Positions 3,337 through 46,127 of a DNA stretch of 51,647 nucleotides are shown in pieces. The stretch is from the NCBI GenBank assembly GCA_030831315.1, contig JAURLI010000014.1, positions 1-51,647 of the forward strand, written 5' to 3'. The notes below the pieces were generated by a model. It did no database searches. It saw only the letters and a program-made list of their open reading frames with translations, and was not told where the DNA came from. Each line of letters starts with the position of its first letter. Within the stretch, counting starts at the first letter, position 1. The position numbers and the translations under genes are program-made. This DNA is from Alphaproteobacteria bacterium (GTDB lineage Bacteria > Pseudomonadota > Alphaproteobacteria > SMXQ01).

Positions 3337-3401
3337 GATTGGCAAGTGGCCTAACGGCCGTGATCAGATGAACGCTTGAGGATTGGCAAGGAAAAAGAGA
3401 G

Positions 3402-4592
<1,191 letters not shown>

Positions 4593-4629
4593 GGAGCGCA
4601 TACGCGCTTAAAGGCACGGGATCAGGAAA

Positions 4630-4938: not shown

Positions 4939-4963
4939 GGCAGGACAGAACGGGATAAACGCC

Positions 4964-5698: not shown

Positions 5699-5703
5699 GT
5701 ACC

Positions 5704-6324: not shown

Positions 6325-6647
6325 CCAAGCGGCTGAATGCAAAGAATGTCCGTGTGGGCGAAGGCAGCAAGTTCGATGTCTTGCTCGCCCCCGTCATCAC
6401 GGAAAAGTCGACCCGCGGCTCCGAGCACAACCAGATCACCTTCAAGGTGCGCCTGGATGCGACCAAGCCCGAGATCAAGGTCGCGGTCGAAAAGCTGTTC
6501 AAGGTCAAGGTGACCGGCGTCAATACCGTGCGCCAGAACGGCAAGATCAAGCGTTTCCGGGGGCTCGTCGGCAAGCGCGACGATTTCAAAAAAGCGATTG
6601 TCACCCTGGCCGAAGGCCAGACGATCGATATCACCTCGGGGCTGTAA
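6321..6647 (+). CDS. rplW: 50S ribosomal protein L23
   Basis: L23 lies at the tunnel exit and is the docking site for trigger factor and SRP. The 108-residue product contains '[11 protein letters not shown]' and '[19 protein letters not shown]', both characteristic. It has about 15 residues more at the N-terminus than E. coli L23. Its ATG overlaps the rplD stop. Confidence 0.96.
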
Positions 6648-6668
6648 GCAAGCGGACAGGACCGGATC

Positions 6669-7502
6669 ATGGCACTCAAGACCTATAACCCGACGACACC
6701 GTCCCAGCGCGAACTTGTGCTGGTTGACCGTTCGCACCTGCACAAGGGCAAGCCCGTCAAGGCGCTGACCGAAGGCAAGAAGAAGAGCGGCGGCCGCAAC
6801 AACAACGGCCGGATCACGTCCTTCCAGCGTGGCGGCGGTCATAAGCAGCGCTACCGCGTCATCGACTTCAAGCGCACCAAGCGCGACGTCGAGGCGACGG
6901 TGGAGCGTCTGGAATACGACCCCAACCGTACCGCCTTCATCGCCCTCATCCGTTATGCGGATGGCGTGCAGGCCTACATCCTGGCGCCGCAGCGCCTCGC
7001 CCCGGGCGACAAGGTCATCGCCGGCGAGCGTGTCGACGTGCAGCCGGGCAATGCCATGCCGCTCAAGTCGATCCCGGTCGGCACCATCATCCACAACGTG
7101 GAAATGAAGCCGGGCCGTGGTGGGCAGATCGCCCGTTCGGCGGGGACCTTCGTCCAGCTGGTCGGCAAGGACTCGGGTTACGCGCAGATCCGCCTCGGTT
7201 CGGGCGAGTTGCGCATGGTGCCGGAAAGCTGCATGGCGACCATCGGTGCCGTGTCGAACCCGGACCAGCAGAACGTCAATTTCGGCAAGGCCGGGCGCAT
7301 GCGCTGGCTGGGCCGCCGACCGGTCGTTCGTGGCGTGGCCATGAACCCGATCGACCATCCGCACGGCGGCGGCGAAGGCAAGACCTCCGGCGGCCGTCAC
7401 CCGGTGACCCCGTGGGGCCGTCCGACCAAGGGCGCCAAGACCCGCGGCAAGAAGTCGTCGGACAAGTTCATCATTCGCTCGCGTCATCGCGGCAAGAAAT
7501 AG
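6669..7502 (+). CDS. rplB: 50S ribosomal protein L2
   Basis: The 277-residue product is full-length L2, which is needed for subunit association and supports peptidyl-transferase activity. Conserved features are '[20 protein letters not shown]' near the N-terminus and the C-terminal '[18 protein letters not shown]' segment with the functionally important histidine. The gene lies 21 nt after rplW within the S10 operon. Confidence 0.98.
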
Positions 7503-7518
7503 GAATAGGGGACCGCAT

Positions 7519-7812
7519 ATGGCTCGTTCCGTCTGGAAAGGTCCGTTTGTCGACGGGTATCTGCTGAAGAAGGCAGATGCAGCTCGCGCTTCCGGCTCCA
7601 AGCAGGTCATCAAGATCTGGTCGCGCCGCTCGACCATTCTGCCGCAGTTCGTTGGGCTCACCTTCGGTGTGCACAACGGTCAGAAGTTCATTCCCGTGCT
7701 GGTCACTGAAAACATGATCGGCCACAAGTTCGGCGAATTTGCTCCCACCCGCGTCTTCCACGGCCATTCCGCCGATAAGAAGACCGCCGTGGGTTCGTCG
7801 GCGAAGTCCTAA
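7519..7812 (+). CDS. rpsS: 30S ribosomal protein S19
   Basis: S19 forms a head complex with S13 near the A site. The N-terminus [19 protein letters not shown] and the core '[19 protein letters not shown]' are conserved. At 97 residues it is slightly longer than E. coli S19 because of a short Lys/Ser tail. It lies 16 nt after rplB. Confidence 0.97.
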
Positions 7813-7830
7813 GGTTCAGGAGACCGCGTT

Positions 7831-8213
7831 ATGGGTCAGAAAGCCAATTCCCGCCGCGAGGCGGACAACGAAGCCGCCGCCGTCGGCAAGATGATCCGGA
7901 CCAGCCCGCGCAAGCTGGGTCTGGTCGCCGGGCTTATCCGCGGCCTCGATGCGAATCAGGCGCTTGCCGAGCTGACGTTCAGCCGGCGCCGTATCGCACA
8001 GGATGTGAAGAAGGTCCTGCAGTCGGCAATCGCCAACGCGGAAAACAATCACCAGCTCGACGTCGACCGTCTCTATGTCGCCGAAGCGACCGTCGGCAAG
8101 GCGCTGGTCATGGGCCGCTGGCGCGCGCGGGCGCGCGGTCGCGTCGGTCGTATCCAGAAGCCGTTTTCGAACATTAAGGTTGTCGTGCGCGAGCGCGACC
8201 AAGAGAGGGCCTA

Positions 8214-8214
<1 letters not shown>
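7831..8214 (+). CDS. rplV: 50S ribosomal protein L22
   Basis: L22 contributes a long beta-hairpin to the nascent-peptide tunnel. The 127-residue product contains '[17 protein letters not shown]' near the start and the hairpin region '[19 protein letters not shown]' near the end. The N-terminal '[15 protein letters not shown]' extension is typical of alphaproteobacteria. Its TAA stop shares one base with the rpsC start (TAATG). Confidence 0.97.
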
Positions 8215-8927
<713 letters not shown>

Positions 8928-8944
8928 GAAAAGGCTTAAGCGTC

Positions 8945-9364
8945 ATGCTGCAACCGAAGAGAACCAAGTACCGCAAGGGCCACAAGGGCCGCATCCACGG
9001 CAACGCCAAGGGTGGCTACACGCTGTCGTTCGGCGCGTTCGGCCTGAAGGCTATGCAGCCCGAGCGCGTGACCGCGCGCCAGATCGAGGCCGCGCGCCGC
9101 GCGATTACTCGCGCAATGAAGCGTTCCGGCCGTGTCTGGGTGCTGATTTTCCCGGATGTCCCGGTCTCCAAGAAGCCCGCCGAAGTCCGTCAGGGCAAGG
9201 GCAAGGGCGCGCCCGAATTCTGGGCCTGCCGCGTGCACCCGGGCCGCATCATGTTTGAAATTGACGGCGTGCCGGCGTCTGTCGCGCGCGAGGCGTTTGC
9301 CCTTGCCGCGGCGAAGCTGCCGATCAAGACGAAGTTCGTCGCCCGCCTTGGCGAAGGAGCCTGA
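8945..9364 (+). CDS. rplP: 50S ribosomal protein L16
   Basis: L16 contacts the A-site tRNA elbow and organises 23S rRNA. The 139-residue product begins [16 protein letters not shown] and includes '[20 protein letters not shown]'-type and '[19 protein letters not shown]' segments. The Arg in the latter is the residue hydroxylated by RoxA in some bacteria, which is known biology and not shown here. It is full length. Confidence 0.97.
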
Positions 9365-9365
9365 C

Positions 9366-9560
9366 ATGAAGGCAACCGAACTCAGGACCAAGACCCCGGA
9401 CGAGCTCAAGACCGAACTGCTTGCGCTGAAGAAGGAGGCCTTCAACCTCCGCTTCCAGCAGGCGTCGGGCCAGCTCGAAAATACGGCGCGGGTTACCAAG
9501 GTGCGTCGCGACATCGCGCGTATCCAGACCGTGCTGAACGAGAAGTCGGCCAGCGCGTAA
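9366..9560 (+). CDS. rpmC: 50S ribosomal protein L29
   Basis: L29 is a small two-helix protein next to L23 at the tunnel exit. The correct start is the ATG at 9366 ([20 protein letters not shown]), one base after the rplP stop. A longer upstream reading in this frame would overlap rplP and has no homology. The product is 64 residues and contains the conserved '[20 protein letters not shown]' segment. Confidence 0.96.
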
Positions 9561-9584
9561 GCGGCAGGAAGACGAGGAAAGACG

Positions 9585-9821
9585 ATGCCGAAGCGTATTT
9601 TGCAGGGGACCGTGGTCTCCGATAAAGGGAACAAGACGGTGATTGTGCGCGTGGACCGTCAGGTGCTGCACCCACTGGTGAAGAAAGTGGTGCGCAGCTC
9701 CAAGAAGTACGCGGCGCATGATGCCGAGAATGGCCATAAGGTTGGGGACAGCGTCCGCATTCGCGAATGCCGCCCGATTTCGAAGACCAAGCGTTGGGAA
9801 GTGATTGCTGACGAAGCCTGA
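9585..9821 (+). CDS. rpsQ: 30S ribosomal protein S17
   Basis: S17 is an OB-fold primary 16S rRNA-binding protein in the 30S body. The 78-residue product begins [19 protein letters not shown] and contains '[19 protein letters not shown]' and '[12 protein letters not shown]', both conserved. The spacing to rpmC is 24 nt with GAGGAAAG as ribosome binding site. Confidence 0.97.
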
Positions 9822-9862
9822 GGGCCGTTGGCGAAGAACCCCATTTGTAGAGGAAGTGACCG

Positions 9863-10231
9863 ATGATCCAGATGCAGTCCAACCTGGAGGTTGCCGATAA
9901 CTCCGGCGCACGCCGTGTCCAGTGCATCAAGGTGCTGGGCGGTTCGCAGCGCAAGGTGGCCGCCGTCGGCGACGTCATCGTCGTCTCGGTCAAGGACGCC
10001 ATTCCGCGCGGCCGCGTGAAGAAGGGCGACGTGCAGAAGGCGGTGATTGTACGCACTGCCTCGCCGATCCGCCGTCCCGACGGCAGCCTGATCCGCTTCG
10101 ACCGCAATGCGGCCGTGCTGATCGATAACCAGGGCGAGCCGATCGGCACCCGTATTTTTGGCCCGGTGACGCGCGAACTGCGCTCGAAGGGCTACATGAA
10201 GATCATCTCGCTCGCGCCTGAAGTTCTCTAG
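9863..10231 (+). CDS. rplN: 50S ribosomal protein L14
   Basis: L14 lies at the subunit interface and forms an intersubunit bridge. The 122-residue product begins [19 protein letters not shown] and has the conserved '[20 protein letters not shown]' segment. It is full length. In E. coli this is the first gene of the spc operon; no clear promoter is visible in the 41-nt gap here, so it is probably read from upstream. Confidence 0.97.
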
Positions 10232-10257
10232 GGCGTGGCGAAACCGAGGACAGTTCG

Positions 10258-10572
10258 ATGAACAAGATCAGGAAAGGCGACAAGGTCGTCGTGCTCACCG
10301 GGAAGGACAAGGGCAAGGAAGGTTCCGTGCTCAAGGTCATGCCCGCCACGGGCCGCGTCCTCGTCCAGGGCGTCAACATGGTGAAGCGCCATTCGCGCGG
10401 CTCGCAGACCCAGCAGCCGGGCATCATCGACAAGGAAGCGCCGATCCATCATTCGAACGTCGCTGTTCTCGATCCCAAGGATGGCAAGCCGACCCGGGTG
10501 ACCTTCAAGGTGCTCGAGACCGGCAAAAAAGTGCGCGTTGCCAAGCGCTCCGGCGAAGTCATCGACGCCTGA
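10258..10572 (+). CDS. rplX: 50S ribosomal protein L24
   Basis: L24 initiates 50S assembly and lies near the tunnel exit. The 104-residue product has the N-terminal KOW motif '[20 protein letters not shown]', then '[19 protein letters not shown]'. A GAGGACAG sequence precedes the ATG. Confidence 0.97.
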
Positions 10573-10598
10573 TGCGCCGCGGTATGTGAGGAAAGATC

Positions 10599-11162
10599 AT
10601 GGCTGAAGCCACTGAAAAATACGTTCCCAGGCTCAAGTCCCACTACGATTCCGTGGTGCGCGGCCAGCTGCAGGAAAAGTTCGGGTACCCGAACCGCTTC
10701 CAGGTCCCGACGATCGAAAAGATCGTCATCAACATGGGCGTTGGCGAAGCGGTTGCGGATTCGAAGAAGATCAACAATGCGGTCGAGGACCTGAAGGCCA
10801 TTTCCGGCCAGAAGCCCGTCATCGCCCATTCCCGCAAGGCGATCGCAAACTTCAAGCTGCGCGAAAATCTCGCCATCGGCTGCAAGGTGACGTTGCGTCG
10901 CGAGCGGATGTGGGAATTCTTCGATCGCCTGGTCAACATCGCCCTGCCGCGCGTGCGCGACTTCCGGGGCGTTCCGGGCCGCAGCTTTGACGGCCGCGGC
11001 AACTATTCACTGGGTCTCAAGGAGCAGATCGTGTTCCTTGAGGTCGACTACGACAAGATCGATACCGTGCGTGGCATGGACATCACCATCGTCACCACGG
11101 CAAAGACCGACGCAGAGGCACGTGCGCTTCTCGAAGGTTTCGATTTCCCGTTCGCCAACTAG
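10599..11162 (+). CDS. rplE: 50S ribosomal protein L5
   Basis: L5 binds 5S rRNA and forms the bridge to S13. The 187-residue product contains '[20 protein letters not shown]', 'LREDLAIG'-like '[20 protein letters not shown]' and the glycine-rich '[17 protein letters not shown]' loop, all typical. The N-terminal [16 protein letters not shown] extension is normal for alphaproteobacteria. Confidence 0.97.
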
Positions 11163-11195
11163 CCGGCGAATTACGGATACGGAGGATCGAAGTAT

Positions 11196-11501
11196 ATGGC
11201 GAAGACCAGTTCCGTCGAAAAGAACAAGCGTCGTGAGCGTTTGGTTCGCAAGTTTGCCGCTCGTCGCGCCAAGCTGAAAGCTTTGGCGAAAGATGAATCG
11301 TTGCCGCCCGAAGAGCGGTTCGCTGCGCGGCTCAAGCTCGCGTCGCTGCCGCGTAATGGTGCGGCCGTGCGTGTCCGCAACCGGTGCGAACTGACCGGTC
11401 GGCCGCGCGGTGTTTATCGCAAGTTTAAGCTCGCCCGCCTGTCGTTGCGCGATCTTGCCTCTAATGGCCAGATCCCCGGCATGGTCAAGGCAAGCTGGTA
11501 G
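11196..11501 (+). CDS. rpsN: 30S ribosomal protein S14
   Basis: At 101 residues this is the long, zinc-free type of S14: it has no CXXC pairs, only a single Cys in '[20 protein letters not shown]'. S14 is a late-assembly head protein. The start is preceded by GGAGGATCG. It is located between rplE and rpsH as in E. coli. Confidence 0.97.
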
Positions 11502-11511
11502 GAGACGGCGT

Positions 11512-11910
11512 ATGTCGATGAGCGACCCCCTTGGGGATATGCTGACCCGGATCCGGAACGCGCAGGCGCGAAAGCTCGCCAGCGTGACCACTCCGGCGTC
11601 CAACCTGCGTGCCAATGTGCTCGAGGTTTTGTTGAAGGAAGGTTACATCCGCAGCTTCGAGCGCAAGGAAACGGCGCCGGGGATGTCGGAAATCCGTATC
11701 GAGCTCAAGTACCACGAAGGCGAGCCCGTTATCCGCACGATCCGGCGCGTATCGAAGCCGGGCCGTCGGGTCTATTCGAAGATCAAGGATCTGCCGCGTC
11801 CGTTCAACGGTCTCGGTATCGCCGTCCTGTCGACTCCCCGTGGCGTCATGTCGGATATCGACGCCCGTGAGGCCAATGTCGGCGGCGAAGTCCTGTGCCA
11901 GGTATTTTAA
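11512..11910 (+). CDS. rpsH: 30S ribosomal protein S8
   Basis: S8 is a primary 16S rRNA-binding protein and, in E. coli, the translational repressor of the spc operon. The start chosen is the ATG at 11512 ([18 protein letters not shown]), with GGAG about 8 nt upstream; a longer in-frame reading overlaps rpsN without homology. A second ATG at 11518 is also possible. The 132-residue product ends in the expected '[19 protein letters not shown]' segment. Confidence 0.96.
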
Positions 11911-33341: not shown

Positions 33342-34448
33342 TCACGCCGCGCCCAGTTGCCGGGTGACGTATTCGCCGATGGCGAGCGAGGACGTCAGTC
33401 CCGGGCTTTCGATCCCGTAGAGGGACACCAGCCCTTCGACGCCGTGTGTATCGGCGCCCTGTACGACGAAATCGTTGAGCGAGGCGCGCTCCTTGTTGAG
33501 CTTCGGGCGAATTCCGGCGTAGCCCGGCACCAGGTCGCCGTCCTGCAGCCCGGGCCAGAAGCTGCGCGCCGCCTCGTAGAAGAACGCGGCACGGCCCGGA
33601 TCGACGGTGTAATCGATGCGATCGACCGGTTCGGTATCCGGGCCGAAACGCGACTGCCCCGCAAGGTCGAGGCTGACATGAACCGCGGCATGGCCAAGCT
33701 CGGGCAGCGGGTAGATCAGGCGGGAAAACGGCGAGCGCCGGCGCAGCACGAAATAGCAGCCGCGTGTCAGCACCTGTCCGGGGACGCTTTCGGGGCGCAC
33801 GCCGTCGATGGCGCGGGCGACTTTCTGCGCGCCGAGACCTGCAGCATTGACGACCATGCTCGCGCGGATGGTGGTCGGGTCCTTGCCGCCCGTGGTGATC
33901 TCGATGCCGTCGCCGGTGGCGCGCCCGCCGACGACCGGCGCGTTGAGCGCCAGCACCGCGCCATGTGCTTCGGCATCGCCAAGGATTGCCTGCATCAGGT
34001 CATGCTGATCGACGATGCCCGATGACGGCGAATGGGCCGCGGCGGCAAAGCGCAGTTCCGGTTCCATCTCGCGCACCTCGGCCGGATCGAGCATGCGCAT
34101 GTCGAACAGGCCGTTGGCCTCGGCCTGTTTCATCATTGCGTGCAGGCCGGGAATTTGTTCGGGCTCGGTCGCAACGACCAGCTTGCCGCAGCGCCGGTGC
34201 GCGACGCCGTGTTCGCCGCAGAAGGCATACATCAGTTCCTTGCCGCGAAGTGCCAGGCGCGATTTCAGGCTGCCCGGCACATAGCCCATGCCGGCATGGA
34301 TGCATCCGGTATTGCGTGACGAAGTGTGCTGGCCGGGGGCGGCCTCGGCCTCGAGGATCACCACCTCGCGGCCCGTGCGCGCAAGCGCCCTCGCCGTGGC
34401 AAGTCCCACCACGCCTGCGCCAATGACGATGCAGTCGGTTCGTTCCAG
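33342..34448 (-). CDS. FAD-dependent oxidoreductase, L-2-hydroxyglutarate oxidase-like (probable CTG start)
   Basis: This DAO-fold flavoprotein is related to L-2-hydroxyglutarate oxidase/dehydrogenase; 'NTGCIHAGMGYVPGSLKSRL' is the matching signature, and 'VNAAGLGAQKVARAI' is the second FAD-fold motif. The usual first motif, G-x-G-x-x-G, is coded just upstream of the first GTG (34412). Going further, the only possible start before the in-frame stop at 34500-34502 is CTG at 34448, giving MERTDCIVIGAGVVGLATAR with the complete FAD motif. AGGGA sits 7 nt before it. I therefore assign CTG and 368 residues. Substrate is inferred only from family. Confidence 0.8.
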   Translation of the reverse strand: MERTDCIVIGAGVVGLATARALARTGREVVILEAEAAPGQHTSSRNTGCIHAGMGYVPGSLKSRLALRGKELMYAFCGEHGVAHRRCGKLVVATEPEQIPGLHAMMKQAEANGLFDMRMLDPAEVREMEPELRFAAAAHSPSSGIVDQHDLMQAILGDAEAHGAVLALNAPVVGGRATGDGIEITTGGKDPTTIRASMVVNAAGLGAQKVARAIDGVRPESVPGQVLTRGCYFVLRRRSPFSRLIYPLPELGHAAVHVSLDLAGQSRFGPDTEPVDRIDYTVDPGRAAFFYEAARSFWPGLQDGDLVPGYAGIRPKLNKERASLNDFVVQGADTHGVEGLVSLYGIESPGLTSSLAIGEYVTRQLGAA

Positions 34449-34514
34449 GGTCGGTCCCTCGTTCCTGCCCGAAAGTGTAGGGGCCGTCCGGGCCGAGGGT
34501 CAAGGAAGGGTGCC

Positions 34515-35777
34515 TCAGCCTTTGGGCAGACCGTTTCCGGGCATCCTGTCGGCGGGGCTCGTCACCAGCCGGGCGCCCAGCGCGACCAGGGCCAGCAAGG
34601 CAACGACGGCGCCGCCGGTGATATAGAAGCTCGCTTCCAGCCCAACGCCCTGCACCACGGCACCCATGATCACCGGCAGGAAGGTCGCCGCCAGCCGGTT
34701 GGCGGTGGTGCGCAGGCCGACGGCCTTGCCCTGCTCGCCGCGGCCGACGACCCGGGAGGTGATGGAGATCACCAGCGGCTGGCTGAGGCCGTAGCAGCCG
34801 CCATTGACGGCGGCGGCCAGCAGCAGAAGCCAGTAGCTGCCGAGCGCAGGCGTCAGCGCAATCGCCACCGCCGATCCGCCGATGACGAAGATCAGCAGCC
34901 ACAGCGGCGCGAAGCGGCGGGTTAGCGGGCCCACGGCGAGTGACAGTCCGCCGCCGAACAGCGAATAGGCCGCAAGCAGCACGCCGATGGCGGTGCCGTT
35001 GTAGCCGCGGCCTTCGAGGTAGACCGCGTAGAAAGACGACTGGATGCTGAATCCGGCGATGCGCAGCACCGAGACCGCCATCACCACGGCGACCAGCGGT
35101 ACGACGAGCATGCGGAAGGCGATCAGATAATCGGAAAGCCTCGGCATCAGGTCGGCGACGCGGGGGCGCGGGCGCGGGCCGGTATCGCCTTCCTGCTGAA
35201 CCGGGGGCAGGGCGAAGCAGCAGAGCAGCATGCCGAGCCCCCATGCCGAGAGCGTGCCGAAGGCCGCCCAGGGACCACCGAAATCCCACGCGGCGCCTGC
35301 GAGCGGCGGGCCGATCAGGGCGCCGATACGCACGACGAAGGCCATGCGTCCGGTGTGAACGGCGCTGCCGCGCATGACCTGTCCGATGATCGCCTGCGCG
35401 CCCATCCAGCCGGTCGCCGAGCAATAGCCGCCGATCATCTGCAGGATGATGATGGCCCAGATCCAAGGCGTGATCGGGAACAGGAGCGGCAGCAGGACGC
35501 CGAAGCCGGCGAAGGCGATCATCACCCGGCGCACGTCGAGGCGATCCATCATCGCCCCGCCGTGAATCGAATAGAGCAGCACCAGGGCATGGCGCGCACC
35601 AAGGATGATGCCGACCATCAGCGGCGATACACCGAGCGTCAGCGCCCACAGCGGCAGCACCACCATCATCATGTAGCCGAGCGAATTCGAGAACGTCGCC
35701 GCGCCATAGACCGCCATTTCAAGGCGGCGCGGCACCTCGGGCGCGGGGTCCTGATCGGCCGTCGTCGGCGCGCTCAT
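34515..35777 (-). CDS. MFS transporter, array member 5 (last in transcription order)
   Basis: This 420-residue protein has 12 hydrophobic segments and is a paralogue of the four genes upstream. Shared motifs are 'IHGGAMMDRL' at 71-80 (MFS motif A region), 'GWMGAQ', the central-loop 'MPRLSDYL', 'SSFYAVYLEGRGY' and 'LRTTANRLAATFLPVIMG'. The start at 35777 (MSAPTTADQDP) overlaps the stop of the previous array gene by four bases (ATGA); a longer frame upstream is a shadow of that gene. The DRLDVRR form of motif A has Asp where the others have Gly. The substrate is unknown. Confidence 0.9.
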   Translation of the reverse strand: MSAPTTADQDPAPEVPRRLEMAVYGAATFSNSLGYMMMVVLPLWALTLGVSPLMVGIILGARHALVLLYSIHGGAMMDRLDVRRVMIAFAGFGVLLPLLFPITPWIWAIIILQMIGGYCSATGWMGAQAIIGQVMRGSAVHTGRMAFVVRIGALIGPPLAGAAWDFGGPWAAFGTLSAWGLGMLLCCFALPPVQQEGDTGPRPRPRVADLMPRLSDYLIAFRMLVVPLVAVVMAVSVLRIAGFSIQSSFYAVYLEGRGYNGTAIGVLLAAYSLFGGGLSLAVGPLTRRFAPLWLLIFVIGGSAVAIALTPALGSYWLLLLAAAVNGGCYGLSQPLVISITSRVVGRGEQGKAVGLRTTANRLAATFLPVIMGAVVQGVGLEASFYITGGAVVALLALVALGARLVTSPADRMPGNGLPKG

Positions 35778-37003
35778 GATGCTGTCTCGTCGCGCTTCTG
35801 GCGAACGATGGCAATGGCGCTGCCGGCAAGGATCAGCAGCAGCAACCCGCCGGTGACGAAGAACGTCGCGGCCAGCCCCCATGTTTCCGCCACCGCGCCC
35901 ATCAGGATGGGCAAGGTAATGCCAGCGACACGGTTGCCGGTGGCGCGCAGCCCGATGGCGGTCGCCTGGGTTTCCCGCGATGCCGCGCGCGACAGGATGG
36001 TGTACATGACCGGCTGGCTCGCCCCTTGGGCGAAGCCGCGCACCGCGATGGCGATCGCCAGCACGAACAGGGCGGAACCGAACAGGGGCGTGGCGTAGAT
36101 CAGGATTACCGACAATGTCACGGTGCCGAGAAACACCCAGTGCGGGGGCACGAAGCGCGACATCCAAGCGCCCGAAAGCGTGCCCGCCGCCGCCATCATC
36201 TGCGACAAGGTGACAAACAGCCCGATGAAGGTCGCCTGCAGGCCGATTTCCTTCAGGTAGACGATATAGAAAGATTGCTGCATCAGCGCCGAGCCGATGC
36301 GCACCGACGACACCACGACGACGAAGGCGACGATGGGTACGGCCATCAACCCGATGGCACCGATATAATCGCTGAGCCGCGGCATGATGTCGCGCAGGCG
36401 AAAGGGCGGGCGGGGGGCGTCGGTCGCGCGGTCTTCGCCGACGGCCTTGGGTGGAATGGCGCGGATCGCCAGCCAGAAGGCGCCGCCCGCCGCGCCGATG
36501 ACGGCGAAGGAAATCCAGTGGGGCAGGAAGTCCCACATGACGCCTGCCAATGTCGGTGCGATCATCACGCCGACGCGGGCAAAAAAGGAAAAGCGGTCGA
36601 GCACGCGCGGATTGTCCTTGCCGACGACAACGGCCAGCGCCTGCGCGCCGATCCAGCCGAAGGACTGCGCCATGCCGAGCGCCATCTGCAGAAGCAGCAG
36701 GGTCGGAAACCAGCTGGCGACGATGAAGAGCGGCGGCATCACGGTGCAGGCGGCGCCCAGCATCAGCATGACCAGCCGCGTACCAAAGCGGTCCATCAGC
36801 ACGCCGCCGTGAATGGACAGGATCGAGGGCAGAATCGACTTGGCGCTGACCAGAATGCCAAGCTCCAGCGGCCCGAAGCCGAGCGCCACCGCGTACAGCG
36901 GAATGATGAAGCTGACGAGCTCCGTCTGGGCGTCGTTCAGCGTGCCTGTGGCATAGGTGAATATCTCGGCCCGCTTCATGGCGGGCTGACCCGAAGGGGA
37001 CAT
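35774..37003 (-). CDS. MFS transporter, array member 4
   Basis: A 409-residue, 12-helix major facilitator. Array motifs are 'SIHGGVLMDRFGTR' (IHGG at 64-67), 'GWIGAQ', 'MPRLSDYI', 'QSFYIVYLKEIGL', 'GASQPVM' and 'LRATGNRVAGITLPILMG'. Helix 1 carries acidic residues ('LNDAQTELVSFIIPLYAVAL') not shared by all members. The start at 37003 may be replaced by M9 (MKRAEIFTY). A hairpin and a 112-bp gap separate it from member 3. The substrate is unknown. Confidence 0.9.
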   Translation of the reverse strand: MSPSGQPAMKRAEIFTYATGTLNDAQTELVSFIIPLYAVALGFGPLELGILVSAKSILPSILSIHGGVLMDRFGTRLVMLMLGAACTVMPPLFIVASWFPTLLLLQMALGMAQSFGWIGAQALAVVVGKDNPRVLDRFSFFARVGVMIAPTLAGVMWDFLPHWISFAVIGAAGGAFWLAIRAIPPKAVGEDRATDAPRPPFRLRDIMPRLSDYIGAIGLMAVPIVAFVVVVSSVRIGSALMQQSFYIVYLKEIGLQATFIGLFVTLSQMMAAAGTLSGAWMSRFVPPHWVFLGTVTLSVILIYATPLFGSALFVLAIAIAVRGFAQGASQPVMYTILSRAASRETQATAIGLRATGNRVAGITLPILMGAVAETWGLAATFFVTGGLLLLILAGSAIAIVRQKRDETAS

Positions 37004-37080
37004 GGGCTTCCTCTTTTCCTGCGGGGCTGTCGACCGCCCGCGGTGCCGGTTGGCTCCGGCGCTGGGGTCAATCTAAAGCC

Positions 37081-37101
37081 CCTTTGCCGGTATGGCAAAG
37101 G
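37081..37101 (-). terminator. Hairpin between MFS array members 3 and 4
   Basis: CCTTTGCC (37081-37088) and GGCAAAGG (37094-37101) form a perfect 8-bp stem with a 5-nt loop. It is placed 15 bp after the stop of member 3 in the direction of transcription, in the only long gap of the array. The sequence after it (GGCTTTAGATT) has no clean T-run, so it may be a weak terminator, an attenuator or an mRNA-processing hairpin. Confidence 0.4.
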
Positions 37102-37115
37102 CAGCGGTGCGGGCA

Positions 37116-38372
37116 TCAGGAGACGCTGCGGAAGGCGGGATTGCGCGCGGACCACACGGCAATCACCACGACGATGCCGAGCAGGCCGGCGCCGATGATC
37201 AGGAAGCTCGCCTCGACACCCACCACCTCGGCGACGAAGCCCATGACGATGGGCAGAAGAAGCGCGCCCAGGCGGTTGCCAGTGGTCCTGAGCGCTACGC
37301 CGCGGGCCTGGGCATCGGCGGGCAGCGCCTTGGCAATGACCGAAAAGGCGGCCGGGTGCAGCAGCCCGTGGCCGAGGCCGCGCAGGATCTGGGCTGCGGC
37401 CAGGAAGGCAAAGACGCCGCCGAGCAGCGGCGTGATCGCCATCAGCGCGATGGTCAGCGCCGTCAGCCCGACCAGCAACCAATGGACCGGCACACGGCGC
37501 ATGGCGGGCGCGGCGAAAAGGGAGCCGAAGGCGCTTGGCACCTCGGCGCAGCCGATCAGCACGCCGATCAGGGTCGCGGTCAGGCCGATGTCCTTCAGGT
37601 AGGTGATGTAGAACGACGCCTGGATGGTGGAGGGCGTATGGCGCAGCAGCGCCACGGCGATGCCCAGCATGACCGCCGGGATGGCCAGCAGGTGCACGCA
37701 GGCGATGTAATCGCCGATACGCGGCAAGGCATCGCGCCAGCCGAAGGGGGGCGGCGGACTGGCGGTGCGCGCGCGGGCGAAGGCTTCGGCCTCGGCGGTG
37801 CTGCCGTGCTCGCCCCATCCAGGCACGGCAACGACGGTTGCCCACATGGCGAGCGATACGGCGAAGCAGGCGGCGAAGCCGCCCCATACGCCGGTGAAAT
37901 CCCAGATCAGGCCGATGACGACGGGCCCGCCGATGGACCCCACCCGCGAGATGAAGGCAAAAATCCCGAGATAATGGGCATCGCCCTTGCCCATGCGCGC
38001 GATCAGCGTCTGCGCGCCGACCCAGTGCATGTTGGAAAAAAGACCCGTCAGCATCTGGAGTGCGACGAGCATCGGGAACCACGTGGCAAATGGATAGAGC
38101 GGGATCAGCCCTGCCGTGAGGCCGGTAAACAGCAGCATCATGCGCCGCGTCCCCAGCCGGTCCATTAGTACGCCGCCGTGGATCGACAGCAGGAACGGCA
38201 GGATCGAGCGTGCCCCGATCATGATGCCGATCTGCGATGGCGTCGCGCCGAGCTTGAGCGCCCACAGCGGCACCACCACCAGCATGAAGTCGGCATAGAG
38301 GTTGGTGGCGAGCCCGGTGCCCAGAACCGGCCACAGGGCGCGGCGCGGGATCTGCGGGCGTGTGTCGCTCAT
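37116..38372 (-). CDS. MFS transporter, array member 3
   Basis: A 418-residue major facilitator with 12 hydrophobic segments. Array motifs are 'SIHGGVLMDRLGTRR' (IHGG at 64-67), 'HWVGAQ', 'LPRIGDYI', 'ASFYITYLKDIGL' and 'LRTTGNRLGALLLPIVMG'. It departs from the others in 'GLLHPAA' where they have 'QPVM'. The start at 38372 (MSDTRPQIPRRAL) overlaps the stop of member 2 by four bases. The frame is open for about 370 codons upstream, but that stretch is Arg- and His-rich and is a shadow of member 2. Confidence 0.9.
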   Translation of the reverse strand: MSDTRPQIPRRALWPVLGTGLATNLYADFMLVVVPLWALKLGATPSQIGIMIGARSILPFLLSIHGGVLMDRLGTRRMMLLFTGLTAGLIPLYPFATWFPMLVALQMLTGLFSNMHWVGAQTLIARMGKGDAHYLGIFAFISRVGSIGGPVVIGLIWDFTGVWGGFAACFAVSLAMWATVVAVPGWGEHGSTAEAEAFARARTASPPPPFGWRDALPRIGDYIACVHLLAIPAVMLGIAVALLRHTPSTIQASFYITYLKDIGLTATLIGVLIGCAEVPSAFGSLFAAPAMRRVPVHWLLVGLTALTIALMAITPLLGGVFAFLAAAQILRGLGHGLLHPAAFSVIAKALPADAQARGVALRTTGNRLGALLLPIVMGFVAEVVGVEASFLIIGAGLLGIVVVIAVWSARNPAFRSVS

Positions 38373-39601
38373 GTTGCCGCCGCCTCGGGCATGCGGCGGG
38401 CGTAGAGCCACAGTACGGCAGTACCCGCCAGCAGCACGCCGCCGAGGATCAGGAAGCTCGACCCGATGCCCGCGGCATCGGCGATGATGCCCATGACCGG
38501 AGGAATGATGATCGACGATACGCGATTGACCGTGACGCGGAGCGCAACCGTCGCCCCCTGGCGCTCGGGCGGCACCGCCTTCGCCTGGACCGAAAACATC
38601 ACCGGCTGGTTGATGCCCTGGATGACCCCGCGCAGGGCCTGGGCCACGAACAGAAGTACGACGATGCCGCCGAGCAGGGGGGTTATCGCGATCAGGGCGA
38701 TGGCTGCGGCGGTGGTGCCGATCAGCATGACGAAGGGCGGCAGCAGTTTCGAGGCCCGCCCGGCGACCAGCGAGCCGATGCTGCTTGCCCCTTCGATGGC
38801 TGCGAACAGCACGCCGATGACGGTGCCAGTGATGCCGATCTCGGTCAGGTAGACGACGTAGATAGAACTTTGAATGCTGGATGTGGAGTTGCGCAGGAAA
38901 CACGCGCCGATGGATATGGCGATGGCCGGGATGGCGCAGAGCGCGATGGTCTCCCGGTAGTCCGACCATTTCGGCATGACCGTGCGAATCATACCCGCGA
39001 TGGAGCGCGGGCCAACGGGCGCTTCGCTTGCCCGTCTGGGGCCGTCGCCGGAAATGGAAAGGGTGAGGCCCAGCATCAGCGCCGCCCACAGGGACACGCC
39101 CACGAAGCAGACGGTCGGATTGGTGAAGTCCCACAGCAGGCCGAAGATGATTGGTGCGACGAAAGTGCCGATACGGGTGGCGAAGGAGAAATAGCCGATG
39201 TAGCCGGTTTCGCCCTTCGACAGGTGGGCGATGGTGGTCTGTGCGCCGACCCATTGCATGGTCAGCGCCAGCCCGATGATCGTCTGCATGATCAGGAGCG
39301 GCACGAACCATGGCAGCAGCGGATAGAGCGGTGCCATGACGATGATCACGACGACGAAGACAATCATGATGCGCCGCGGCCCATAACGGTCGATCAGCGC
39401 GCCGCCGTGAATGGCAAGGAGGCCCGGCAGCAACGAGCGCGCGCCGACCAAGAGGCCCACTTCTGTCGCGTTGGCGCCGATCAGCACCGCCCACAATGGA
39501 ATGATGAACACGTAAGCATCCATCAGGCCAAGCGCGAGCAGGCCGGAACCGTAGCTCAGAAGAAGAGCGCGGCGGGGCGGACTGGCGGGCGCCTCGGCCA
39601 T
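38369..39601 (-). CDS. MFS transporter, array member 2
   Basis: A 410-residue major facilitator. Array motifs are 'AIHGGALIDRYGPRR' (IHGG at 64-67), 'QWVGAQ', 'MPKWSDYR', 'SSIYVVYLTEIGI', 'GINQPVM' and 'LRVTVNRVSSIIIPPVMG'. Its C-terminus is short, ending RRMPEAAAT. The start lies 2 nt after the stop of member 1, and its stop overlaps member 3, so translation of the three genes is probably coupled. Confidence 0.9.
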   Translation of the reverse strand: MAEAPASPPRRALLLSYGSGLLALGLMDAYVFIIPLWAVLIGANATEVGLLVGARSLLPGLLAIHGGALIDRYGPRRIMIVFVVVIIVMAPLYPLLPWFVPLLIMQTIIGLALTMQWVGAQTTIAHLSKGETGYIGYFSFATRIGTFVAPIIFGLLWDFTNPTVCFVGVSLWAALMLGLTLSISGDGPRRASEAPVGPRSIAGMIRTVMPKWSDYRETIALCAIPAIAISIGACFLRNSTSSIQSSIYVVYLTEIGITGTVIGVLFAAIEGASSIGSLVAGRASKLLPPFVMLIGTTAAAIALIAITPLLGGIVVLLFVAQALRGVIQGINQPVMFSVQAKAVPPERQGATVALRVTVNRVSSIIIPPVMGIIADAAGIGSSFLILGGVLLAGTAVLWLYARRMPEAAAT

Positions 39602-39603
39602 GA

Positions 39604-40842
39604 TCAGGACTTGAATCCCGGAATGCGTCGCACGAAGAGCGCGACGCAGAGCGTCATCGCGATCAGGCTACCGCCGATCCAGTAGAAGCTCTCCTCGACG
39701 CCGACGGCTTCGGCCACCAGCCCCATGACGCCCGGCACGATCATCGTTGCGAAACGGTTCGACGTCGTGCGCAGGCCGATGGAGGTGCCTTGTTCGTTGC
39801 GCCCGACCGCGCGCGAAAGGATGCCGAACATCACCGGCTGGCTCAGCCCCTGGCCGTAGCCGCGCAGGAAAGTGGCGATGGCGAGCAGGGCGAAAACACC
39901 GCCGAGCAGCGGCGTGATGGAGACGAAGAGCAGCGACATGCCGACGAAGGCAATGAATACCCAATGGGGCTTCAGGTATTTTTCCCAGAAGGCGGCCATC
40001 AGGGCGCCCAGAAGCCCTGCGCCTTCCGACAGGGCGACCAGCACGCCGACCAGCGTGCCGATCATGCCGATGTCGCGCAGGTAGACAACATAGAAGGATG
40101 TCTGCACGGCGGTCGAGGAAATGCGCAGCGCGCTCATCACCACGACGAAGGCAACCGTCGGTATGGCGATCAGGGAAAAGGCGCGGATGTAATCCGACAT
40201 TTTCGGAGTCAACTCGCGCACGACGTCGCGCGCCGTCGGGCGTGGCGTGGTATCGGGATCGGTCGGCGCGATCCACAGCGCCGCCACCACGACCCAGGAT
40301 GCCACCGTCACCAGGCCGAAGGCGCCCCACGGCCCGCCGATGTCCCAGGCGGCGCCGACGGCAATCGGGGCGATGAGGGTGCCGAGTTTTCCCGCCACCG
40401 AGAACTGGGCGATCAGGGCCGTGCGTCCCGAGGACAGGTTGCAGATCAGCGCCTGGGCGCCGACCCATCCCATGTTGGAGGTAAGCCCGGTGATGAGTTG
40501 CAGGACGATGATCGCCCAGAAGAAGGGCAGCACGGGATAGAGCGGTACCGCCAGCGCCGTGGTGATGACGTAGGCAAGCGTCACGCGCCGGATGCCGAGC
40601 CGGTCCATCAGCACGCCGCCGTGGATCGAGAGCAGGAATGGCAGCAGCGCCCCGGCCGAGGAGGCAAGGCCGAATTCGCTCGGTGACATGTGCAGATGCA
40701 CCGCCCAGAGCGCAAACACGACCTTAACCATCAGCGCCACGGAATTGGCGGTCAGCCCGACGCCAAAGGCGGTGTACAGCGCGATCCGCGAAGGGCCGGA
40801 TTCGGCCTGCCGCGGCGCCTCGTTGCGCTCGGTCTCGGACAA
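39604..40842 (-). CDS. MFS transporter, array member 1 (first in transcription order)
   Basis: A 412-residue major facilitator. Array motifs are 'SIHGGVLMDRLGIRR' (IHGG at 73-76), 'GWVGAQ', 'TPKMSDYI', 'TSFYVVYLRDIGM', 'GLSQPVM' and 'LRTTSNRFATMIVPGVMG'. The N-terminal 18 residues are polar and cytoplasmic. A GAGAGGGAA purine-rich stretch lies just before the ATG. The promoter should lie in the 154-bp divergent gap shared with the VWA gene, where I could not fix -35 and -10 boxes by eye. Confidence 0.9.
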   Translation of the reverse strand: MSETERNEAPRQAESGPSRIALYTAFGVGLTANSVALMVKVVFALWAVHLHMSPSEFGLASSAGALLPFLLSIHGGVLMDRLGIRRVTLAYVITTALAVPLYPVLPFFWAIIVLQLITGLTSNMGWVGAQALICNLSSGRTALIAQFSVAGKLGTLIAPIAVGAAWDIGGPWGAFGLVTVASWVVVAALWIAPTDPDTTPRPTARDVVRELTPKMSDYIRAFSLIAIPTVAFVVVMSALRISSTAVQTSFYVVYLRDIGMIGTLVGVLVALSEGAGLLGALMAAFWEKYLKPHWVFIAFVGMSLLFVSITPLLGGVFALLAIATFLRGYGQGLSQPVMFGILSRAVGRNEQGTSIGLRTTSNRFATMIVPGVMGLVAEAVGVEESFYWIGGSLIAMTLCVALFVRRIPGFKS

Positions 40843-40996
40843 GTTCCCTCTCCCGGTTTTGCTTGATTATGGGGCCTGACGGGCCGCCGGTACGGCCGGG
40901 GTCCAAACTAATCCAGCCCCGGAGGCATGGAAAGTCCCCAATGAATCTGGGATTTGGCGGCTACCTTGGACGGGCCGGATTGCGTATCATGACGTC

Positions 40997-41719
40997 ATGA
41001 GTGGCAAACGCGATATTCGCTCCTCCGGCGCGAAGGCGCCGGCAGAGCGCCGGTCGGCGGACGTAGAGCGCTTCCTCAATCAGGTCGCTGCCGCGCCGCC
41101 GCGCGCGGCCGGTACCCGTGGCCGACTGATGTTTGCCATGGATGCCACTGCCAGCAGGGAACCGACCTGGGACCGCGCCTGTGCAATCCAGGGCGACATG
41201 TTCACCGCCACCGATACGCTGGGCGGTCTGGAGGTCCAGCTCGTCTTCTATCGCGGCTACAACGAATGCAAGGCGAGCCCTTGGGTGAGCAATTCCGCCG
41301 ATCTCGTCCGCCGCATGACGGCGGTGCGCTGTCTCGGAGGGCATACCCAGATCGGCCGCGTGCTTAGCCACGCCGCGAGCGAGACCCGCAAGAAGAAGGT
41401 CAATGCGCTGGTCTTTGTCGGTGACGCGATGGAAGAGCCGGTCGATGACCTTTGTCATGCGGCGGGCGAACTGGGGCTTCTCGGCGTTCCGGCATTCATC
41501 TTCCACGAAGGCGGCGATCCCGTCGCCGAGCGTGGCTTTCGCCAGATCGCCAAGCTGACCAAGGGCGCCTATTGCCGTTTCGACGCGGGATCGGCGGAGC
41601 AGCTCAAGGACCTGCTTTCGGCGGTGGCCGTCTATGCCGCGGGTGGGCGCAAGGCGCTTCTCGATTATTCCGGCAACCGCAGCGGCGTCGTGCGCCTGCT
41701 GACCAACGAGATGAAGTAG
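40997..41719 (+). CDS. VWA-domain protein
   Basis: The 240-residue protein is a von Willebrand factor A domain without a signal peptide. The metal-ion-dependent adhesion site reads D49-x-T51-x-S53 ('FAMDATAS'), with Thr in place of the first Ser of DxSxS. Later MIDAS parts are 'GGHTQIGRVL' and 'FVGDAMEEP'. It has a Lys- and Arg-rich N-terminal stretch. It is followed 3 nt later by a membrane J-domain protein. The function is not known; VWA domains generally mediate protein assembly. Confidence 0.8.
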   Translation: MSGKRDIRSSGAKAPAERRSADVERFLNQVAAAPPRAAGTRGRLMFAMDATASREPTWDRACAIQGDMFTATDTLGGLEVQLVFYRGYNECKASPWVSNSADLVRRMTAVRCLGGHTQIGRVLSHAASETRKKKVNALVFVGDAMEEPVDDLCHAAGELGLLGVPAFIFHEGGDPVAERGFRQIAKLTKGAYCRFDAGSAEQLKDLLSAVAVYAAGGRKALLDYSGNRSGVVRLLTNEMK

Positions 41720-41722
41720 CTG

Positions 41723-42433
41723 ATGATCGCGTATTTCGTTCTTGGGATCGGACTCCTGATCGGCCTGTTGCTGCTGGCGCGCTGGATCGTCAATGCCGAT
41801 CCGCGCCTGCTGGTCTGGGCGGTAAAGGTCGTGGCCGTGATCGTCGCGCTCGGCTTCGGCGGGCTGATCATCGCCACCGACCGCGTGCAGTGGGCGCTCT
41901 ATGTCCTGCCGCTGGCCTTGCCGTTCTTTTTCCATTGGCGCTCAGCCCGGATTCGCCAGCGCAATGCGCGGGGTCCGGCGGCGGGCGGGCGGTCGACGAT
42001 CAATACAGGCTGGCTGAACATGGAGCTCGACCATGACAGCGGTGCCATGCGCGGCACGGTCCAGCGCGGCCGCTTCGCTGGGCGCGGCCTTGCCGGGATG
42101 TCGGTTGAGGAATTGCGGGAGTTGCTCGACGAGGTGGCCGACGATGCCGACTCGGCGGGTGTGCTCGAGGCCTACCTCGACCGCGTGCACGGGCCCGACT
42201 GGCGCCAGGGCGGGACGGGGGCGGAGCCTCCGCCCCGGCGGCCGGCACCACCTTCGGGCATGAGCGAGGAAGAGGCCCTCGACGTCCTCGGCCTCGCCCC
42301 GGGGGCCAAAACCGCCGAGATCAAGGAGGCCCACCGCCGCCTGATGGCCAAGCTCCACCCGGACCGGGGCGGGTCCACCTATCTGGCGGCAAAGCTCAAT
42401 CAGGCCAAGGACGTGCTCCTCAAGCGGGGCTGA
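41723..42433 (+). CDS. Membrane-anchored J-domain protein (Tim14/Pam18-like)
   Basis: The 236-residue protein has hydrophobic helices at about 3-20, 30-52 and 55-71, a linker rich in Gly, Ala and Pro (about 85-180) and a C-terminal J domain. The J-domain HPD motif is at 212-214 in 'AKLHPDRGGSTYLAAKLNQA'. This end-of-chain, shortened J domain resembles the mitochondrial import-motor protein Tim14/Pam18 and its alphaproteobacterial relatives. It would recruit DnaK to the inner membrane. The gene is coupled to the VWA gene. Confidence 0.82.
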   Translation: MIAYFVLGIGLLIGLLLLARWIVNADPRLLVWAVKVVAVIVALGFGGLIIATDRVQWALYVLPLALPFFFHWRSARIRQRNARGPAAGGRSTINTGWLNMELDHDSGAMRGTVQRGRFAGRGLAGMSVEELRELLDEVADDADSAGVLEAYLDRVHGPDWRQGGTGAEPPPRRPAPPSGMSEEEALDVLGLAPGAKTAEIKEAHRRLMAKLHPDRGGSTYLAAKLNQAKDVLLKRG

Positions 42434-42520
42434 CGGGGCGGTCTTGCCGGGGGGCGGGCGCTGTGGCACAAAGACCGCGCCCGGCGGGGACCCGGGGACG
42501 AATAAGGAACGCAGCACATC

Positions 42521-43396
42521 ATGGCGAAAGCCGTTCGCAAGGCGATATTTCCGGTGGCGGGGCTTGGCACCCGCTTCCTTCCGGCGACCAAGGCGGTGCC
42601 CAAGGAAATGCTGCCGGTCGTCGACCGGCCGCTGATAGACTATGCCGTGTCGGAAGCCCGTGCCGCCGGCATCGATACCTTCATTTTCATCACCGGTCCG
42701 CGCAACGAGCCGATGCTGCGGGCGCATTTCGAACTGGTTGCGTCGCTCGAGGCGGAACTCAACGCCAAGGACCCGAAGCTCGTCACCATGCTGCGCGAGA
42801 TGGAGCCGCCGCGCGGCTCCGTTCATTGCGTCCATCAGGACCGGCCGCTCGGCCTCGGCCATGCGGTCAATTGCGCGCGCGATCTCATCGGCGACGAGCC
42901 CTTCGCGGTGCTGCTGCCCGACGACCTGATGGACTGTAATCCGCCGGCGCTGGCGCAGATGGTGGCGCTGCACGGCAAGACCGGCGGCAACGTCGTTGCG
43001 GTCGAGGAAGTGCCGCGCGAACTGACCCGCCGCTACGGCGTGCTCGATGTCGGTGTCGATGACGGCCACATGGCGGAAGTGAAGGGGCTGGTCGAAAAGC
43101 CCGAGCCGGAAAAGGCGCCTTCCACCCTGACCGTGATCGGCCGCTATGTCCTGCTGCCCGAGGTATTCGAGCACCTTGCCCTGCGCCAGCGCGGCGCGGG
43201 CGGGGAAATCCAGCTGACCGACGCCATGGCCAAGATGATCGGCCATGCGCCCTTCCACGGCTTGCGCTGCGGCGGGCATCGCTACGATTGCGGTTCGCGC
43301 GTCGGTTTCGTCGAGGCACAACTTGCCTTCGCCATGAAGGACGACGCCATGCGCGATCGCCTTCGCGATTACATGCGCCGGACCAGCGCCGAATAG
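42521..43396 (+). CDS. galU: UTP-glucose-1-phosphate uridylyltransferase
   Basis: The enzyme makes UDP-glucose from UTP and glucose 1-phosphate. The 291-residue sequence has the nucleotidyltransferase signature 'FPVAGLGTRFLPATKAVPKE', followed by 'LPDDLMDC' and 'GLVEKPEPEKAPSTLTVIGR', typical of bacterial GalU. Its product is the substrate of the next gene, ugd, which begins 24 nt later. Together they supply UDP-glucuronate for surface polysaccharides. Confidence 0.95.
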   Translation: MAKAVRKAIFPVAGLGTRFLPATKAVPKEMLPVVDRPLIDYAVSEARAAGIDTFIFITGPRNEPMLRAHFELVASLEAELNAKDPKLVTMLREMEPPRGSVHCVHQDRPLGLGHAVNCARDLIGDEPFAVLLPDDLMDCNPPALAQMVALHGKTGGNVVAVEEVPRELTRRYGVLDVGVDDGHMAEVKGLVEKPEPEKAPSTLTVIGRYVLLPEVFEHLALRQRGAGGEIQLTDAMAKMIGHAPFHGLRCGGHRYDCGSRVGFVEAQLAFAMKDDAMRDRLRDYMRRTSAE

Positions 43397-43420
43397 GCCC
43401 GGCGTTACGGAGAAAAAACC

Positions 43421-44743
43421 ATGCGTATCGCTATGATCGGCAGCGGCTATGTTGGCCTCGTTTCCGGGGCGTGCTTCGCCGAATTCGGCTTCGACGTCAC
43501 CTGCGTCGACAAGGACGAAGCCAAGATCGCGCGCCTTGAACAGGGGCAGATCCCGATTTTCGAACCGGGCCTTGACGATCTCGTGACCGAGAACGTCAAG
43601 GCGGGGCGCCTGTCCTTCACCACCGACCTTGGCGCCGCGGTCAAGGCAGCCGATGTCGTGTTCATTGCCGTTGGCACGCCGAGCCGTCGCGGCGACGGTC
43701 ACGCGGACCTGAGCTACGTTTACGCTGCTGCCGAGGAGATCGCCCGGGCCATCGACGGCTATACGGTGGTGGTGACCAAGTCGACGGTGCCGGTCGGAAC
43801 GGGGCGCGAGGTTTCGCGGATCATCGCCAAGACCCGCCCTGACGCCGATTTCGACGTCGCGTCGAACCCCGAATTCCTGCGCGAGGGTTCGGCCATTGGC
43901 GATTTCATGCGCCCCGACCGCGTCGTGATCGGCGCCGATTCGGACCGCGCACGCGAGGTTCTGGGCCGTCTTTACCGGCCGCTCAACCTGCTGGAGACGC
44001 CGATCGTCTATACCAGCCGGGAAACCGCCGAGCTGATCAAGTACGCGACCAACGCCTTTCTCGCCACCAAGATCACCTTCATCAACCAGATGGCGGATCT
44101 GTGCGAAGCGGTGGGGGCCGACGTTACCGATGTCGCGCGCGGCATGGGCCTCGATGGCCGCATCGGTCGCAAGTTCCTGCACCCCGGGCCGGGCTACGGC
44201 GGGTCGTGCTTTCCCAAGGACACGCTGGCGCTGGTCAAGACGGCGCGCGACGCGGGGGCGCCGGTCTCGATCGTTGAAAATGTCGTGGTCTCCAACGATG
44301 CCCGCAAGCATGCCATGGCCCAGAAGATCATCCGCGCCGTCGGCGGCGATGCAAGGGGCAAGACCATCGCCGTGCTGGGCCTGACCTTCAAGCCCAATAC
44401 CGACGACATGCGGGAAAGCCCGGCGCTCGACATCGTGCCGGCACTGCTCGCGGCTGGAGCAAAGGTTCGCGCCTACGATCCGGAAGGCATGAACGAAGCG
44501 CGCAAGTTGCTGTCGGGTCTCGATTATGCCGACGGCATCGAGGCCGCGATGGCGAGGGCCGACTGTCTCGTGATCCTGACGGAATGGAACCAGTTCCGCG
44601 CCCTTGATACGGACGCGATCAAATCGGCACTTCGGGCGCCGGTGGTCGTCGATCTGCGCAACGTATTCCGCCCCGAGGACATGACCGCGGCGGGCATTCG
44701 CTATTTCAGCATCGGCCGGCCGACGCCGGGCCAAAAGGAGTAA
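43421..44743 (+). CDS. ugd: UDP-glucose 6-dehydrogenase
   Basis: The enzyme oxidises UDP-glucose to UDP-glucuronate in two NAD-dependent steps. The 440-residue sequence begins with the NAD-binding motif [10 protein letters not shown] (7-16). The catalytic Cys is C263 in '[17 protein letters not shown]'. '[11 protein letters not shown]' and '[19 protein letters not shown]' are conserved. The product feeds capsule, LPS or exopolysaccharide synthesis. It is 4 nt upstream of the phosphomannomutase/phosphoglucomutase gene. Confidence 0.96.
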
Positions 44744-44747
44744 TGCC

Positions 44748-46127
44748 ATGACGGGTCATAAATTGGATCCGACCATCCTGCGCGAATATGACGTTCGCGG
44801 CACTGTCGGCAAGGACCTGACCGAGGCCGACGCCCGCGCGCTCGGCCGGGCTTTCGCCACCTGGCTGGCGAAAAAGGGCGGCAAGACCGTTCATGCCGGG
44901 CGCGACGGGCGCAAGTCTTCGCCGGTGCTCGAAGCGGCGCTGGTCGAAGGCCTGACGGCAGGCGGCATGGACGTCGTGCGCGTCGGCGAAGGGCCGACGC
45001 CGATGCTCTATTACGCGACGGTGTCGGGCAAAAGCGACGGCGGCATCCAGGTCACCGGTTCGCACAATCCGCCGCGCTACAACGGCTTCAAGTTCATGGC
45101 CTTCGGCAAGGCCTTCTACGGCGCAGACATTCTGGCGCTGGGTGCCATCGCGGCTGCGGGCGACTACGCCTCGGGCAAGGGTTCAGTGCGCGACCAGGCG
45201 GTGTTCGATGCCTATGTCGCACGGCTCGCCCAGGACTACGACGGCAAGGTGCCGCTTGCCATCGGCTGGGACGCAGGCAACGGCGCCGCCGGTCCGGCGA
45301 TGAAGGCCCTGACGGAGAAGCTTCCCGGCCGTCACGTTCTGCTGTTTGAAACCGTCGATGGCGAATTTCCGAACCACCATCCCGACCCGACGGTGCCGAA
45401 GAACCTCGAGCACCTGATCGCCGCCGTGGCGAAGGAAAAGCTCGACCTCGGCATCGCTTTCGACGGCGACGGCGACCGCATCGGCGTGGTCGACGGCAAG
45501 GGTCGCATCCTGTGGGGCGACCAGATGATGGCGCTTCTCGCCCGTGACGTCGTGGCGGCCAAGCCCGGCGCCACGATCATCGCCGACGTCAAGGCGAGCC
45601 AGGTCCTGTTCGACGAAATCACCCGGATCGGCGGCACGCCGCTGATGTGGAAAACCGGCCATTCGCTGATCAAGTCGAAGATGGCCGAGACGGGCGCTCC
45701 CTTCGCCGGCGAAATGAGCGGGCATATCTTCTTCGCCGACCGCTACTACGGCTTCGACGATGCGCTATACGCTGCCGTGCGGCTGGTATCCTTCGTTGCG
45801 CGCTCCGGCAAGTCGCTGGCGGAACTGCGCGATGAACTGCCCGTCGTGATCAATACGCCGGAACTGCGCTTTCCCTGCGCCGAGGACCGCAAGTTCAAGG
45901 TGGCGGAAGAGGTCAAGGCGCGGTTGCTCGCACGCAAGGCAAATGTCAACGATTGCGACGGCGTGCGGGTGCTGACCGATGACGGCTGGTGGCTGCTGCG
46001 GGCGTCCAACACCCAGGATGTTCTGGTGGCGCGCTGCGAATCGAAGACCGCGGAGGGGCTCGAACGCCTCAAGGCGGCGCTGGTCGCCGAGCTCGATGCC
46101 AGCGGCGTTGCCCCTCCCCAGTTCTGA
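44748..46127 (+). CDS. Phosphomannomutase/phosphoglucomutase
   Basis: This 459-residue alpha-D-phosphohexomutase interconverts hexose 6- and 1-phosphates and so supplies glucose 1-phosphate to GalU or mannose 1-phosphate to GDP-mannose synthesis. The phosphoserine is S105 in '[14 protein letters not shown]', the metal loop is DGDGDR at 239-244, and the sugar-binding loop 'GEMSGHIFF' is present. It is of the AlgC/ManB type, with four domains. The dual activity is known for the family but not shown here. Confidence 0.93.

Follow-up and report, generated by a model that had tools for sequence, protein, structure and literature searches.

An ordered, position-specific array of diverged MFS carriers in a lineage-specific alphaproteobacterial subfamily

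Five consecutive genes on the minus strand of the window (the whole stretch of 51,647 nucleotides that was analysed) encode diverged MFS carriers, which form part of an array that is real, old, ordered and position-specific, that keeps its order across several genera in one group of uncultured Alphaproteobacteria, and that in its fullest form holds seven genes in the order A-B-C-D-X-E-Y. The explanation that we favour, and consider probable, is that old tandem duplication produced this ordered array, each position now holding a distinct carrier for a particular substrate which is kept by purifying selection, whilst single members have been lost.

Results

The carriers of the window

Gene A (39604..40842) encodes an MFS carrier of 412 aa in an open frame with a TTG start behind GGGAGAGG; the MFS carrier genes that follow, also on the minus strand, are B (38369..39601, 410 aa), 2 nt past A, C (37116..38372, 418 aa), which overlaps B by 4 nt, D (35774..37003, 409 aa), 112 nt past C, and E (34515..35777, 420 aa), which overlaps D by 4 nt. 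Each of the five frames in the span 34515-40842 is intact, with a single stop at its end. The sequence-only reading had described five tandem related carriers of 409-420 codons on this strand, and its coordinates, lengths and junctions proved exact; the motifs that it gave as shared (IHGG-x3-DR, W-x-GAQ, DY, S-x-Y-x2-YL and LR-x-T-x-NR) are present in all five window proteins and likewise in their orthologues from G001, a genome of the same genus. Pairwise identity between the five proteins is 34-42%. Against the G001 orthologues, NG86 estimates of dN/dS are ~0.11-0.30, and identity at third codon positions is far below that at first and second positions, which together indicate that A-E are functional and under purifying selection. 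All five match the Pfam model MFS_1 (PF07690) at E-values of 1e-29 to 6e-34, scoring 104-118 bits where the cut-off is 33.4. For A, structure prediction gives the 12-helix, two-bundle MFS fold (pLDDT 83.9), and the best structural matches of this model are MFS proteins, the nearest structures being VMAT, SPNS2, G6PT and NorA (Z 36-41).

The array in related genomes

The order A-B-C-D-X-E-Y was never broken in the window, G001, G004, G005, G008, G009 or G010, several of these arrays being split over MAG contigs (G001, G004, G009 and G010). All seven genes stand consecutively on a single contig in G008, and the window holds A-B-C-D-E, with neither X at the D/E position nor Y after E. The G001 array runs from A, B, C, D, X and E to the start of Y, where it reaches the contig end; a second G001 contig carries Y and then a FAD oxidoreductase gene, and as its start overlaps the end of the array contig with a few mismatches, we infer that G001 has the seven genes in the same order. 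G010 carries A, B, C, D, X and E as far as its contig end, with an extra ORF in the C/D gap, in G009 the pieces A-B, B-C and D-X-E-Y each lie on a contig of their own, G004 has A-B and C-D-X-Y without E, and G005 has A-C-D-E-Y, with B absent from the locus and X ~59 kb away. The locus in genus g2 consists of three genes (A, one B/C-side gene and one X/E/Y-side gene), and in genus g3 of A only. A is the first gene of the array wherever the locus is assembled, and its orthologues, 52-85% identical, occur in all ten other genomes of the same family. Of the two properties that the sequence-only reading had proposed comparing, order is kept across genera, but copy number is not, with 1-7 genes at the locus and single members missing. 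The extra ORF of G010 (L039, ~3320-4220, G010:C181) reads by eye like a 2-oxoglutarate/Fe(II) oxygenase, and a related ORF (group c88) adjoins C in G009.

A tree built from 57 proteins placed each of B, C, D, X, E and Y in a clade of its own, with bootstrap values of 98-100 (100/99 for B, 100/100 for each of C, D and E), whilst A grouped with a dispersed copy, A2, which was nested within A (bootstrap 100; 100/99 for A/A2). Two larger groups were recovered, one comprising A/B/C/D and one scattered group, the other comprising X/E/Y, one g2 gene and the array genes of a second alphaproteobacterial family, f105. Orthologous positions do group across species, the check that had been suggested for this locus, and the presence of position-specific clades across genera refutes a plain, recent local amplification. 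The f1 array may have grown from three genes to seven, or it may have shrunk in g2 and g3.

The second family, f105, has its own conserved three-gene array, again with position-specific clades. Arrays of this kind lie at 8134-11862 (L130), 7817-11547 (L143) and 4330-8057 (L160), and have upstream of them, on the opposite strand, a gene for a class II aldolase. At another locus (L141, G308:C1, ~1598400-1600980, in a one-contig genome) an MFS array of two genes begins with one that appears split between two frames, perhaps through a sequencing error or because the copy is broken.

Family distribution

The window genome, a 2.7 Mb draft of 89 contigs that is 99% complete, holds 11 members of the carrier family, namely A-E and six singles on other contigs. 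Every one of the 11 genomes in the window's family has between 3 and 16 members (E ≤ 1e-50), and f105 has 2-12 per genome (E ≤ 1e-40), some of its genomes being incomplete. A scan of 115 class genomes gave no match outside the two families at E ≤ 1e-20. Two larger scans, of 385 class and 398 phylum genomes, in which a few candidates per genome were scored, gave none outside them at E ≤ 1e-50. When A alone was compared by BLAST with 30 genomes that belong to other families in the class, 29 gave no match at 1e-3 and one gave a weak match, and a search of plasmids returned no named relative. In the genomes sampled, this MFS subfamily is lineage-specific and restricted to two alphaproteobacterial families.

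Family-specific residues

Across 158 members, G76, D80, G119, W126, Q130, P159 and R358 are among the residues that vary hardly or not at all, whilst H74, Q115, W126, Q130, R358 and N362 are particular to the family. The G-x3-DR portion of IHGG-x3-DR we take to be the ordinary MFS motif A, and a motif-C-like GP-x3-G is retained in TM5. Among PDB entries, NorA is nearest in sequence, at ~16% identity. In a profile alignment to NorA (58 bits, with the TM7 register at position 248 less sure), R98 (motif B, TM4), E222 and D307, whose roles in NorA have been described (PMC11130294), correspond to Q115, position 248 and G332. Column 115 is Gln in 151 members, Asn in six and a gap in one, column 332 is Gly or Ala, and column 248 is mostly Thr, Ser, Gly, Ala or Asn. 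Since all three NorA residues are absent in nearly every member, membership in the NorA-type antiporters is not supported, the comparison of E222 and D307 being specific to NorA, as coupling may depend on different acids elsewhere in DHA1. Weak matches were obtained to NCBIfam H+ antiporter and tetracycline efflux models, the best for A reaching 38.9 bits against a cut-off of 319.6 (TIGR00900) and none for B-E passing its cut-off.

Five helix positions, 37 (TM1), 65 (TM2), 241 (TM7), 273 (TM8) and 331 (TM10), are fixed or nearly so within an array position and differ between array positions; they are putative pocket positions, assigned by helix and not by measured pocket contacts. For example, position 37 is mostly Asp in genes B and C, Glu in D, Asn in X, Tyr in E and Gln in Y, and position 273 is Glu in A, B and C, Gln in D and Ser in X, E and Y. 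Core helices are in general better conserved. Such group-specific residues would be the trace expected from different substrates, although structural drift could also explain them, and the earlier proposal of different substrates thereby gains indirect support.

Genomic context

A divergent block outside the array serves as synteny anchor (40997..46127, plus strand) and comprises VWA-like, DnaJ-domain, GalU-like, UDP-glucose/GDP-mannose dehydrogenase and phosphomannomutase genes; whole or mostly, it flanks A in G001, G002, G003, G005, G006, G007 and G010. The interval upstream of A and divergent from the VWA gene (40843..40996, minus strand) contains GGATTAGTTTGG (40914..40903), which by eye is -10-like and roughly conserved ahead of A in several relatives. 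The C/D gap (37004..37115, minus strand) holds a promoter-like TTGCCA-17-TAGATT at 37098..37070, recognised only as a consensus match, and the orthologous gaps in G004, G008 and G010 contain TTGGCA...TACAAT, a rough conservation judged by eye. After E lies a gene for a FAD-dependent oxidoreductase (DAO, L-2-hydroxyglutarate-oxidase-like; 33342..34412, minus strand), with a candidate promoter-like site at 34503..34474. From the gaps and promoter-like sites, the window array is probably transcribed as two units, one of A-B-C and one of D-E, the oxidoreductase standing apart from both.

No linked enzyme is conserved across genera at the array, nor was a regulator or a membrane-fusion or outer-membrane partner found next to it. 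The FAD oxidoreductase adjoins the array in the window genome (G000), G001 and G005, but was rejected as an array partner because its nearest relatives are on other contigs in G004, G008, G009 and G010; the DAO by the f105 three-gene array is a different paralogue, ~50% identical to the window oxidoreductase. DUF3179, class II aldolase and ABC (Gld-like) genes were likewise rejected, each being an array neighbour in one family but not in the other.

Some scattered paralogues lie near TauD, cupin, LigB-like, HPPD-like and FAA hydrolase genes, and these catabolic neighbours flank the scattered copies, not the array. TauD/TfdA-type 2-oxoglutarate dioxygenases are strongly expanded, numbering 18-33 per genome in G000, G001, G005, G008 and G010 and 51-57 in the f105 genomes G219, G308 and G385, and TctC-type extracytoplasmic receptors show a similarly marked expansion, with 17-63 matches per genome (G000, G001, G003, G005, G007, G008, G010 and G308). 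Because both are so numerous in these genomes, their proximity to paralogues means little; some are adjacent to scattered paralogues, but in the eight genomes compared neither shows a conserved link to the array, and neither was accepted as a partner. A few TctC genes directly adjoin members of this MFS family.

Discussion

We propose that a lineage-specific MFS subfamily expanded at one fixed locus by old tandem duplication to give A-B-C-D-X-E-Y, that each position would have given rise to a distinct carrier for a particular substrate, held under purifying selection since before the genera split, and that single members would be dropped when not needed. Each protein would work as a lone 12-helix alternating-access carrier, the fold being taken from the prediction for A and the mechanism from general knowledge of the MFS. 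The proteins most likely act separately and differ in the small organic solutes that they carry, and the substrates might be small organic acids or related metabolites that are taken up or exchanged. The catabolic neighbours of the scattered paralogues, with the richness of the genomes in TauD and TctC genes, fit organic-acid scavenging and tilt the balance slightly towards uptake or exchange over efflux. A more specific form of this proposal, a hitherto undescribed MFS subfamily with altered coupling residues that carries an ordered panel with one substrate per position, from which lineages drop members singly, we advance tentatively and with a little less than even confidence.

Drug:H+ antiporters of the DHA1 family (TC 2.A.1.2; for example NorA, MdfA and SotB) share the 12-TM MFS fold, motif A and a motif-C-like TM5 with the array carriers, and with NorA as the nearest solved relative by sequence and the weak NCBIfam efflux matches, the array could be read as a battery of exporters for different toxic compounds or metabolites. 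In nearly all members of the array family, however, the motif B Arg (Gln/Asn in 157 of 158) and both NorA coupling acids are absent, and none of the partners or regulators named above was seen beside the array, which leaves export unlikely, though with an appreciable chance of being right. Hetero-oligomers, also raised by the sequence-only reading, would make the locus a single multi-subunit transporter needing several array members, as the tight translational coupling and the conserved order of an array held together might suggest. MFS carriers are mostly monomers or homodimers, and the array loses its members singly in different genomes (X and Y in the window, B in G005, where X also lies apart, and E in G004), genus g3 having A alone at the locus and g2 three genes, whilst the scattered single copies of the family have no partners. 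These independent losses disfavour obligate hetero-oligomers, an idea which we therefore think very improbable. Tandem paralogues and translational coupling would also be expected from plain amplification for dosage, but functionally equivalent copies hardly accord with proteins of such low identity, deep position-specific clades common to several genera and distinct helix residues, and we give this reading almost no credence.

Tandem and lineage-expanded MFS paralogues are known as such. Francisella has nine fpt genes, of which FptB takes up isoleucine and FptE asparagine (PMC8308642). Like the array, Francisella Fpt and Legionella Pht are lineage-restricted MFS expansions, and Fpt members differ in nutrient; but they are described as a subfamily and not as an ordered array (PMC8308642), the likeness being an analogy of expansion, and the organisms that carry the array are known through environmental MAGs. 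NarK1/NarK2 and narK-narT are tandem or fused MFS pairs in nitrate respiration operons (PMC5217062, PMC6394727), and are, like the array genes, neighbouring divergent MFS paralogues, but with two members against five to seven. We found no described array of this shape in the open-licence literature, so the earlier statement that no such system had been described is uncontradicted there, although it needs to be read beside NarK1/NarK2 and Fpt.

What is new here is the unusual degree of order in which diverged paralogues of a little-known MFS subfamily stand. With up to seven such paralogues in an order that is fixed across genera, the locus is a natural series for mapping helix residues to specificity, and this mapping would be done in an MFS subfamily without the usual motif B arginine. 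For two poorly known alphaproteobacterial groups, it brings to light an uncharacterised transporter family present in 2-16 copies per genome.
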